Shown piece after piece: positions 19,476 to 38,095 of a stretch of 64,000 nucleotides of DNA. Each line of letters begins with the position of its first letter. The first letter of the stretch is position 1. Position numbers and translations under genes: made by a program. The stretch lies in contig JAIRVB010000016.1 in assembly GCA_031254105.1 (NCBI GenBank), positions 1 through 64,000 on the forward strand. Direction: 5' to 3'. This DNA is from Chitinispirillales bacterium. GTDB taxonomy: Bacteria > Fibrobacterota > Chitinivibrionia > Chitinivibrionales > Chitinispirillaceae. The notes beneath the pieces were generated by a model that made no database searches, had not been told where the DNA came from, and saw only the letters and a list, made by a program, of their open reading frames with translations.

Positions 19476-19600
19476 AAATTTTGAATTTTAAATTCTTAAT
19501 TTTGAATTAAGGGCCTAAATATCAAAATAGAAGGTTTACCCGGCTTGTGACCGAAAATTCAATCTTTTGAATTCAAAATTCAAAATTCAAAATTCAAAAT
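19476..19600. repeat. 'attttgaatt' inverted-repeat element before pilC
   Basis: The left side (19476-19509) repeats ttttgaattttaaattc; the right side (19565-19600) repeats ttcaaaattcaaaattc in the opposite sense, around ~55 bases of unique sequence. The same design occurs at 30309-30432. Confidence 0.75.
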
Positions 19601-34209: not shown

Positions 34210-35322
34210 ATGCAACAAGCTTTAAACCAACCGCTGCCACAAATCCCTCAGCTGCCCCAACAGATAACACATATTAAAGAACTACTTATGGCGGCGGCTC
34301 AGAGCGGAGCGACAGATCTGCTGCTGTGCGTAGGCCAGCCTCCTAAAATACGCATCAACGGCTATCTGATGCCGCTTGAGTGCGAATCATTGACTCCCGA
34401 TAAATCGCTTGAGCTGTGCTACCAGGTGATGACCGAATCGCAGCAGAAAATGCTTGAAGACAACTGGGAGGTTGACTTTTCATTCGGCATGCGGGAGATC
34501 TCCCGTTTCAGGGCGAATGTGTTTATGCAAAGAGGCACTGTATCGGGAGCGTTCCGCAGAATTCCGGTTAACGTAAAATCATTTGAGGAATTAAATCTTC
34601 CATCCGTAGTTGAAGTTATGTGCGAAAAACCAAACGGTTTAATTTTGGTAACAGGACCGACAGGAAGCGGTAAATCAACAACACTCGCCGCAATGATTGA
34701 CAAAATAAACGACACGCGCTATCAGCATATTATTACTATCGAAGACCCCATAGAGTATCTTCACAAGCACAAGCGCTGCACGGTTGAGCAGCGGGAGATT
34801 AACTCTGATACCAAGTCATTTCACAGCGCTCTGCGGAGCGTGCTGCGCCAGGACCCCGATGTGGTTCTATTGGGTGAAATGCGCGACCCGGAATCTATCC
34901 AGGCAGCTCTTACAATCGCGGAAACAGGTCACCTCTGCCTTGCCACCCTGCACACCAACTCATGCTCGCAGACCCTGTCAAGAATTGTAGACGTATTCCC
35001 TTCCGAAAGGCAGCAGCAAATCCGTACCCAGCTGGCGATGAGCCTCAATTGCGTCTTTACGCAGGTACTGCTGCCGCGCATAGGCGGCGGTATCCAGCTT
35101 GCTATGGAGATTATGGTCGCAACCTCGGCAATAAGATCAATGATAAGAGAAAATAAAATCCATAACATCGACAACCATATTCAGCTCGGATCCAAATACG
35201 GTATGCAGACTTTGAACCAGTCTTTAGCCAGCGCGGTAAAGATGCGCCGCGTTACCGAGGAAGACGCGTTAACCGCAAGCACGGATCATGATGATTTTAG
35301 GAAATGTATGTCGTACGCTTAA
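34210..35322 (+). CDS. pilT: Pilus retraction ATPase PilT (first copy)
   Basis: A 370-residue PilT-family hexameric ATPase. After a Gln/Pro-rich start, the PAS-like N-domain (TDLLLCVGQPPKIRINGYLMPL) and the RecA-like domain with Walker A GPTGSGKST (149-157), Asp box IITIEDPIEYLH, Walker B region VVLLGEMRDPESIQAALTIAETGH and His box TLHTNSC are seen. The usual PilT C-terminal motif AIRNLIRE appears as AIRSMIREN. It disassembles pili for twitching or surface retraction. Starts at ATG 34210 with only a weak purine stretch upstream. A second, diverged PilT is at 38208. Confidence 0.93.
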   Translation: MQQALNQPLPQIPQLPQQITHIKELLMAAAQSGATDLLLCVGQPPKIRINGYLMPLECESLTPDKSLELCYQVMTESQQKMLEDNWEVDFSFGMREISRFRANVFMQRGTVSGAFRRIPVNVKSFEELNLPSVVEVMCEKPNGLILVTGPTGSGKSTTLAAMIDKINDTRYQHIITIEDPIEYLHKHKRCTVEQREINSDTKSFHSALRSVLRQDPDVVLLGEMRDPESIQAALTIAETGHLCLATLHTNSCSQTLSRIVDVFPSERQQQIRTQLAMSLNCVFTQVLLPRIGGGIQLAMEIMVATSAIRSMIRENKIHNIDNHIQLGSKYGMQTLNQSLASAVKMRRVTEEDALTASTDHDDFRKCMSYA

Positions 35323-35328
35323 AAAATC

Positions 35329-35896
35329 AATGCAGAAATAATAATGCAGAATGCAGAAATATTAACAATGGAGAGGTACACTTTGAAGGAGAGTGTTATA
35401 CTTGAAAAAAGTATGAATTTCTCGGTAAGAATTGTGAATATGTTTAAATATCTCTGCAATGAACAAAATGAATTTGTAATGTCTAAACAATTATTACGTA
35501 GTGGAACGAGTATAGGAGCAAATGCGTGTGAGGCGCATAACGCACAATCAAATAAAGATTTTCTTGCAAAAATGTATATTGCGTATAAGGAATCAACTGA
35601 AACTGAATACTGGCTGAAATTGCTTGCAAAAACCAATTACTTGCCATTGAAACTAAGCGAAAGCATATTAACCGATTGCGTGGAAATTAAAAAAATTCTC
35701 ACAGCAATCATTAAATCCGTAAAATCAAACAGTAATAAACAAAAATAGGACAAGGTTTTAGAGAGTGTAAATTATTTTCTATAATTTAGTTTGTTTAATG
35801 CAGAATGCAAAAACAAAGTAACTAATATTATAGGGTAGTTCTATTTTTACTAATGTTTTTAAATATTTCTGCATTCTGCATTATTATTTCTGCATT
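35329..35896. mobile_element. Inverted-repeat element carrying a four-helix-bundle gene
   Basis: Perfect 35-base terminal inverted repeats (35329-35363 and 35862-35896) made of iterated 'aatgcagaa(t)' enclose 498 bases with one gene (35368-35748). The repeats are identical over all 35 positions. The element sits between pilT and pilB, 7 bases after the pilT stop and 28 before the pilB start. Gene-less elements built on related repeats occur at 41275-41383, 45692-45836 and 50954-51062. Confidence 0.8.
35368..35748 (+). CDS. Four-helix-bundle protein of the 23S rRNA intervening-sequence (S23/IVP) family
   Basis: About 126 residues with the family pattern: an early hydrophobic helix (FSVRIVNMFKYLCNE), the highly typical LLRSGTSIGANACEAHNAQSNKDFLAKMYIAYKESTETEYWL and a final helix (ILTAIIKSVKSNSN). 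The family was first seen as ORFs in intervening sequences of 23S rRNA genes and forms small helical bundles, pentameric in structures of relatives; function unknown, with homology to Avd of diversity-generating retroelements. ATG 35368 is preferred; ATG 35344 lies within the terminal repeat. It has no functional link to the pilus genes around it; it is framed by perfect inverted repeats and is AT-richer than its neighbours, so is probably a passenger. Confidence 0.9.
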   Translation: MERYTLKESVILEKSMNFSVRIVNMFKYLCNEQNEFVMSKQLLRSGTSIGANACEAHNAQSNKDFLAKMYIAYKESTETEYWLKLLAKTNYLPLKLSESILTDCVEIKKILTAIIKSVKSNSNKQK

Positions 35897-35923
35897 AAAT
35901 AGCCATTAAGAGAGGATATAAAA

Positions 35924-38095
35924 ATGAACTCAACCGCGGCTGTGACCGAACCAACCACCGTCTCCCCTTACTCCATCACTCTGCTTGGATATTCTAAAAG
36001 TGATTTTGAGTATCTAAGCAAACTTATCAATCAGGTAAACCTGGGGCGCCCTGTTAAGTTTTACGGGGGAGATCTCGCTAAATACCATAATGTAGACTGC
36101 GATCTTGTGATAGTGGTTATTGACAACGCCGCCAATATTAACAGATATATCAAAGATATATCTGATGTAAAAAACCAGAGTCCGGCGGGTGAAATTATTA
36201 TATGCACGGCACAGGATAAGGATCGTAAAATTATTGAAAACAATAAAGACAAAATAGAAGCAGATGAGATTCTTTTTTTGCCGATGCAGCCTCAGGAGCT
36301 TGCGAAGGCGATAATGGTTCATCTGTCAAAAAGGGACAACCGGCGGCCTCAGAGCGCCGTCCCAACCTCTAAAAACCCTGAAAGCGCCGGTTCAGGCGGC
36401 CCTGTAAGGCTTGGCGACTTATTAGTTAAAAGCAAGCTTATAACCGGCTCTAACCTCAAAACCGCTCTTGATCATCAGAAAAAAACAGGTCAGCGCCTCG
36501 GAGATGTTCTCATTAATCTGGGTTTTATAACCGAAGAGCAGAAACTTGCCTGCCTGGCAAGCCAGCTTGACTTAGAGATCGCTACCGCGCGCCAGTACGC
36601 GTCTGTAGACCTCAACATCGCGGCGCTTATCCCTGAACACATGGCTAAACGGTTTTGCTGCCTTGCTCTTGAGAAAAACGGCGGAGAGCTTCTTGTTGTA
36701 ATGACAGACGCGCTTGATCTGAAAATGCTTGATACCCTCAGAGACGCGACTGATCTGCGCATCTTACCTGTCCTTGGTAAAAAGGATGACATCGAAACAT
36801 CTATAGAGCGGTGTTACCGCGATATCTCCTCCCACAATGACGCGACAAAATTCGCCGAAAGCATGGAGGAAGAGGATATTGAGGTTGTCAAAAAAGAGGA
36901 GGATCTTGACCTTGAACAGTCGGCGGCTGCCGGAGCGGAAATCGGAATCGTTAAGCTTGTAAACATTTTAATTACAAACGCGATACGGGACAAGGCAAGC
37001 GACATACACATTGAGCCGATGGAGACTGAAGTTGTGGTGCGTTACCGTATAGACGGCGACATGCGCAAAGTGATGTCCCCCCCAAAACGCTCTCATCACG
37101 CCATAGTGGCCCGTATCAAAATTCTCTCAGATCTCAACATTGCGGAGCGGCGCTTGCCGCAGGATGGGCGCATGGCGATAAAATTGGGCAGCCGCGAGGT
37201 AGATATCCGCGTGTCCATACTCCCGACAATTTTCGGTGAGAAGGCGGTTCTGCGTATTCTTGACAAAGAGGCATTTGAAAAGAGTACTTCAAATTTAGGT
37301 TTTACCCCTCACGATGACAAAATATTCAGATCTCAGATCGCCAAACCGTATGGAATAGTTATGGTAACAGGCCCAACGGGAAGCGGTAAATCCACCACCC
37401 TTTACAGCGCGCTTCAAATTGTAAAGGATGTCACTAAAAACGTTATAACAGTAGAGGATCCGGTTGAGTTTCACATGGCCGGTATAAACCAGGTTCATGT
37501 AAACTCCGCTATCGGCCTTACATTCGGGGCAGCCTTGCGCTCTATTCTCCGCCAAGACCCCGATGTGATACTTATAGGAGAGATCCGCGATTCCGAAACC
37601 GCTGATATTGCCACAAAAATGGCTCTTACAGGACACCTTGTGTTCTCTACCCTGCACACAAACGATGCCGCAAGTTCCATAGCGCGTTTGGTCGATATCG
37701 GAGTTCCGCCGATTCTTCTCGGTTCTTCTATTAACCTTATAATAGCGCAGCGGCTTGTGCGTAGAATTTGTACAAAATGTAAAGTTGAGTATGTTCCTGA
37801 CCACGAACTTTTAGAAGGCATAGGCCTCCCGCCGGAAGCGGTTTCTCACCTTTACAAAGGTACAGGATGCGTAGCCTGCAACGGCACCGGGTTTGCGGGC
37901 CGAATCGCCATATTCGAGATGCTTGAGGTATCAAAAACGATCCGTAAACTTATTCTAAAGGGCGCTTCCACCATCGACATTCAGGAACAGGCTGAAAAAG
38001 AGGGCATGAAAACCCTTCGTAAAGCGGGACTTGAGCTTGCCATAAACGGCACGACTACTATTGAACAGATAATAGCGGCAACGATGGAAATTTAA
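35924..38095 (+). CDS. pilB: Pilus extension ATPase PilB with N-terminal receiver-like domain
   Basis: A 723-residue GspE/PilB ATPase. Residues ~15-140 look like a degenerate response-regulator fold (SITLLGYSKSDFEYLSKLI, CDLVIVVIDNAANI, GEIIICTAQDKD, ADEILFLPMQPQELAKAI) in which the C-terminal Lys is not evident. An MshEN/GspE N-domain follows (~165-300, VRLGDLLVKSKLITGSNLKTAL). The ATPase core has SDIHIEP, Walker A GPTGSGKST (near 482), IRDSETADIA and TLHTNDAA. A zinc tetracysteine module (CTKC near 615, then CVAC) is present. It drives polymerisation of pilins on PilC. gagaggatat precedes the ATG. Confidence 0.94.
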   Translation: MNSTAAVTEPTTVSPYSITLLGYSKSDFEYLSKLINQVNLGRPVKFYGGDLAKYHNVDCDLVIVVIDNAANINRYIKDISDVKNQSPAGEIIICTAQDKDRKIIENNKDKIEADEILFLPMQPQELAKAIMVHLSKRDNRRPQSAVPTSKNPESAGSGGPVRLGDLLVKSKLITGSNLKTALDHQKKTGQRLGDVLINLGFITEEQKLACLASQLDLEIATARQYASVDLNIAALIPEHMAKRFCCLALEKNGGELLVVMTDALDLKMLDTLRDATDLRILPVLGKKDDIETSIERCYRDISSHNDATKFAESMEEEDIEVVKKEEDLDLEQSAAAGAEIGIVKLVNILITNAIRDKASDIHIEPMETEVVVRYRIDGDMRKVMSPPKRSHHAIVARIKILSDLNIAERRLPQDGRMAIKLGSREVDIRVSILPTIFGEKAVLRILDKEAFEKSTSNLGFTPHDDKIFRSQIAKPYGIVMVTGPTGSGKSTTLYSALQIVKDVTKNVITVEDPVEFHMAGINQVHVNSAIGLTFGAALRSILRQDPDVILIGEIRDSETADIATKMALTGHLVFSTLHTNDAASSIARLVDIGVPPILLGSSINLIIAQRLVRRICTKCKVEYVPDHELLEGIGLPPEAVSHLYKGTGCVACNGTGFAGRIAIFEMLEVSKTIRKLILKGASTIDIQEQAEKEGMKTLRKAGLELAINGTTTIEQIIAATMEI

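Follow-up and report, generated by a model that had tools for sequence, protein, structure and literature searches.

Genes of the S23/IVP family (PF05635), whose job is unknown, were found in many bacterial phyla to sit between mirrored arrays of 7- or 8-letter DNA words, and in related species they come and go between neighbouring genes, which suggests a widespread and apparently undescribed kind of small insertion. In 80 PF05635 loci from many phyla, 47 had strong inverted repeats around the gene, compared to 3 of 551 shifted placements and 9 of 252 flanks of other small ORFs. We consider it somewhat more likely than not that these units represent a class of mobile elements that encode S23, lack a transposase and are related to the intervening sequences (IVS) of 23S rRNA; that S23 itself is the mover is inferred.

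The unit between pilT and pilB

The starting point was a 568-bp unit in a window of 64,000 nucleotides (positions 1 to 64,000 of contig JAIRVB010000016.1, assembly GCA_031254105.1, Chitinispirillales bacterium). The initial annotation described it as one four-helix-bundle gene enclosed by perfect 35-bp terminal inverted repeats between pilT and pilB, and this observation was confirmed. The match between the two arms extended to 40 nt at 95% identity, and the arms were composed of GCAGAAT-type heptads. The best inverted repeat at random placements of the same geometry in the window scored at most 28, in comparison to 70 for the unit, and RNA folding of the unit gave z = -6.0 with the arms paired. 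pilT ends 6 bp before the unit and pilB starts 27 bp after it. The features are collected in Table 1.

Table 1. Coordinates of the unit, its neighbours and related arrays in the window
Position	Strand	Feature	Basis or remark
34210..35322	+	pilT-like ATPase gene, upstream neighbour	ORF; T2SSE profile match
35329..35363	+	left arm, 35 bp = 5 x 7 (AATGCAG AAATAAT AATGCAG AATGCAG AAATATT)	exact inverted copy of the right arm
35370..35376	+	GGAGAGG, Shine-Dalgarno-like sequence	6 nt before TTG 35383; inferred from sequence
35383..35748	+	S23/IVP four-helix-bundle gene	likely TTG start; in-frame ATGs at 35344 and 35368; closest PDB chain 2rld_A, E 2.7e-38
35761..35795	+	segment R (AGAGAGTGTAAATTATTTTCTATAATTTAGTTTGTT)	left outer end of a second repeat family with insertion-sequence-like ends in this genome
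35796..35813	+	inner word arm (TAATGCAGAATGCAAAAA)	with 35857-35896 forms a complete gene-less element of about 100 bp
35862..35896	-	right arm	exact reverse complement of 35329-35363
35924..38095	+	pilB-like ATPase gene, downstream neighbour	ORF; profile match
19477..19600	.	gene-less inverted array of GAATTTT words, about 124 bp	words of the S23 element on contig C21 (locus L012) of the same genome
30308..30432	.	second gene-less inverted array of GAATTTT words, about 124 bp	words of the S23 element on contig C21 (locus L012) of the same genome

The only gene between the arms matched PF05635 (E 1.2e-26; 93.4 bits against a curated cut-off of 33.8) and TIGR02436 'four helix bundle protein' (E 6.9e-31; 106.7 against 24 bits), and no transposase was encoded inside. 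The TTG is probably the better start, because it gives the length of the relatives, whereas the ATG at 35344 lies inside the left arm. A single-sequence AlphaFold prediction gave no usable model (pLDDT 43.6), and we relied on the sequence match to 2rld. No relative was found among viral contigs and phage records, and a search against Rfam gave no hit at 34900-36300.

A same-genus genome (G001) has the two pil genes joined by a 42-bp spacer, with neither an S23 gene nor a repeat, although the junction has diverged too far for the exact insertion point to be read. This genome has no PF05635 match anywhere and only a handful of the repeats of the window.

In the genome of the window the same ends occur at about 45 places (a lower bound, as the counts come from lists of search matches), mostly as gene-less inverted repeats of 57-214 bp, and among the listed matches only the copy in the window carries a gene. 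The gene-less copies are short, multi-copy and have terminal inverted repeats, as MITEs do; however, their ends are word arrays, many interiors are unrelated to each other, and in 29 copies there was no excess of target duplications at k = 2-7, nor at shifted boundaries. Some copies sit inside a second repeat with outer ends GAGAGTGTAAATTATTTTCTGTAA / TTTACAGAAAAAATTTTACACGCTC, which often encloses the word-array elements in this genome. One complete case (locus L003, 1451-1618) has an apparent 8-bp flanking duplication, but no transposase was seen in the three candidate stretches that we read in search of a partner for this outer repeat. The right part of the unit, 35761-35896, is such a copy without its right outer end, so that the right arm is doubled, and another locus (L007) has the architecture of the window without the S23 gene. 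Hitch-hiking in another repeat is thus a real contributor in this genome.

Word arrays around S23 genes in many phyla

Other S23 genes of the same genome are also framed by word arrays, but with different words: TTAGTGG (locus L009), ATTATGA (L010, with a contig end on the other side) and GAATTTT (L012). To examine whether this is general, we scored inverted repeats around S23 genes in further genomes. For own-genome and own-phylum loci the median score was 30, compared to 18 for shifted controls. The 80 cross-phylum loci were found by protein pattern alone, and the 47 counted above score 28 or more (p about 1e-45 against the shifted placements), whereas about 40% of these loci fall below this strict threshold. 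Many loci are from metagenome bins, and the controls are placements and ORFs in the same loci and not a matched gene family genome-wide. All ten plasmid S23 loci that we examined, in Nostoc, Anabaena, Euhalothece, Gloeocapsa, Treponema, Bernardetia, Monoglobus and Chlorohelix, have an array inverted repeat with scores of 25-69.

Self-similarity in both flanks peaked at lags 7, 14 and 21, which was absent in controls. Of 79 elements with clear arms, 62 have period 7, 17 have period 8 and none has another period from 5 to 12. Read inward, the 7-mers share NNNAGNN (A in 59 of 62, G in 45 of 62), with an information content of 3.98 bits in comparison to 3.25-3.49 bits in letter-shuffled words. An upstream arm matches its own downstream arm at a score of 28 or more in 56% of elements, but the downstream arm of another element in only 1.8%, so the words are private to an element and shared by its two ends.

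The S23 gene is under purifying selection, with dN/dS of 0.06-0.13 in the informative, diverged pairs. In Fibrobacter, genomes that hold the S23 type with GACGAGA words carry more GACGAGA arrays (median 43.5 per genome) than genomes with other S23 genes only (18.5) or with none (6; p = 0.005 and 8e-6, not corrected for descent).

Empty, filled and replaced sites

Fibrobacter is the best-sampled genus in the phylum (locus L084 is contained in L092, a Fibrobacter contig). At one junction of two co-directional genes, which look lysS-like and lolE-like from their peptides alone (the argument does not need these names), empty alleles, gene-less arrays (loci L191 and L194) and filled alleles coexist in one genus. 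We noted at least 18 distinct empty alleles and 24 distinct filled ones, the latter with at least four word sets and several S23 subfamilies. An empty allele can be 98-99% identical in the left flank to a filled one (L185 against L072). A second Fibrobacter site shows the same, with empty alleles 93-96% identical to filled ones. In different species the two sites are empty, filled or refilled with different S23 elements. In Nostoc plasmids the event can be given a direction: three plasmids have an intact DNA cytosine methyltransferase gene, and in three others it is split by an S23 element that replaced about 328 bp. One of these also carries a gene-less element with the same word and the same ends (L279). 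The intact target (L278 and L288) already holds CAATTCG, the array word of the element, at the left junction, which may be microhomology at insertion or the source of the word.

The Fibrobacter and Nostoc junctions show loss of target bases and no duplication. In 17 of the 24 filled alleles of the first Fibrobacter site, the upstream junction carries a hairpin with a stem of 5 or more, consisting of the last bases of the host gene, a 3-nt loop in most cases, and their reverse complement, for example AATCGGC-GAA-GCCGATT; none of 20 empty or gene-less alleles has it. At loci L195, L072, L081, L187 and L073 the hairpins have GAA, GGA or GTA loops, and some of them change the last codons of the neighbour. 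At the second site some filled alleles have a similar hairpin inside the neighbour's last codons. This is what fold-back synthesis or template switching would leave; however, a separate Fibrobacter habit cannot be excluded, since such hairpins may serve other roles.

Possible mode of movement and relation to known elements

The interpretation in the initial annotation, a small mobile or formerly mobile element in which the gene is the mover or is needed by it, was partly supported. A small mobile or formerly mobile element with no transposase is well supported by the empty pilT-pilB site and by the filled and empty alleles at two Fibrobacter sites and one Nostoc plasmid site, and the condition named in advance as refuting, that the repeats are unlinked to family genes elsewhere, failed strongly. 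Three points need correction: the same letters do not recur, as each element has its own words; the repeats of the window occur in its genome almost always without the gene, and partly inside another repeat; and there is no target duplication to find.

In the reading we favour, with moderate confidence, the unit is one member of a cross-phylum class of small mobile elements (about 400-600 bp), an S23 gene between inverted arrays of 7- or 8-nt words with no recombinase, inserted without target duplication, mostly between genes of an operon and in sense. Our data show the linkage of S23 genes to inverted word arrays, the element-specific words shared by both arms, the empty, filled and replaced alleles, the loss of target bases, the purifying selection on S23 and the abundance of gene-less arrays with the same words. 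The rest is inferred: the S23 protein, a relative of the accessory protein Avd of diversity-generating retroelements (DGR), would recognise the arrays in single-stranded DNA or RNA hairpins and bring the two ends together, and host replication and repair would then copy the element into a break by template switching. This would explain the missing duplication, the variable target loss, the fold-back copies of the flank at many left junctions and the 7-nt growth and shrinkage of the arrays. Gene-less copies would be moved in trans, and the 23S rRNA IVS with S23 genes would be the rRNA-sited members of the same class. However, no transposition was observed, the S23 protein has no known catalytic site, its binding to the words is only inferred, and the array copies that travel inside another repeat in the genome of the window may have been spread by another enzyme. 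The sense orientation (53:6 among co-directional neighbours) was dropped as evidence for an RNA route, because it does not differ from that of ordinary small ORFs (126:28, p = 0.21).

A further possibility, which we regard as tentative, is that S23 genes define a categorically new class of prokaryotic mobile element with neither a transposase nor a reverse transcriptase (RT), in which a small four-helix protein recognises private word arrays and spreads both the gene-bearing elements and the gene-less heptad arrays seen across bacteria, the 23S rRNA IVS being its rRNA-sited members.

Alternatively, the arms may be ends for a transposase encoded elsewhere, with S23 as a passenger in an ordinary non-autonomous transposon. 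The numerous gene-less copies with the same ends in this genome, some of them inside the repeat with insertion-sequence-like ends and the 8-bp duplication, agree with this. We consider it unlikely, since no element of transposase size with the AATGCAG ends appeared among the listed matches, there was no duplication, the ends differ in sequence from element to element while the gene family stays the same across phyla, and S23 is kept by selection. It is slightly less likely still that S23, like Avd, partners an RT supplied in trans, the RNA of the element, closed by its arms, being copied at a target 3' end. PF05635 resembles Avd (PMC10053308), the arms read inward in the direction of 3'-end growth and carry the same words, and the elements sit in transcribed gene strings, mostly in sense; however, an RT profile hit occurred in only 18 of 80 Fibrobacter genomes and in none of several near-complete genomes with S23 elements, and no RT gene lies next to the elements read, so an RT in trans is not general. 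The weakest alternative, that the arrays are slippage-prone host repeats or regulatory sites and S23 genes are merely captured by recombination between them, draws on the commonness of heptad arrays, which have been read as translation-control sites (PMC4679880), and on the word already present in the Nostoc target, but is improbable given that the gene inside is almost specific, that both arms share words specific to the element and that genomes with a given S23 type hold more of its word.

The IVS of Coxiella burnetii (PMC4990558) has the same protein family and a similar size (428 nt), with an ORF in sense to the host transcript closed by a 28-bp terminal stem, and was earlier suspected to be mobile, although the origin of IVS as a mobile element was only a conjecture. 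The unit described here lies between protein genes and not in a 23S rRNA gene, its arms are tandem 7-8-nt words, and gene-less copies abound. Heptanucleotide arrays (STRR) such as the TAACTGA arrays of Beggiatoaceae, Cyanobacteria and Bacteroidetes (PMC4679880) are likewise 7-nt tandem words in intergenic DNA, often next to start codons and patchy across phyla, and the reverse complement of TAACTGA, TCAGTTA, is one of the S23 arm words; they were described as direct repeats without any gene or mechanism, and no link to S23 or to an element was made in that paper. Avd is a homologous four-helix protein according to PMC10053308, but no RT and no template or variable repeat was seen beside the S23 units. 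Full-text searches found no report that links S23 genes to word arrays, although a prior report cannot be excluded because subscription papers and preprints lay outside their reach. The link gives the S23 family, known for decades only as a 'ribosomal' or intervening-sequence protein, a shared genomic setting, and it gives the heptanucleotide arrays, long noted in cyanobacteria and others without cause, a gene partner. The mobility of rRNA IVS, so far only suspected, becomes testable with naturally filled and empty alleles. If S23 does move these elements, the way it works has no counterpart among known transposons.

A PADLOC search gave no defence-family hit. In four plasmid loci (L283, L285, L286 and L287), S23 elements sit inside defence or modification operons: between hsdS and hsdR, between cas2 and cas1, and next to N-6 methylase or DUF1156/HEPN genes. 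In addition, three S23 genes (L265, L269 and L273; genome G037, contig C68, 1565-2584) were found in tandem with ATTAGTA-type words between them, as if elements had inserted beside or duplicated one another.
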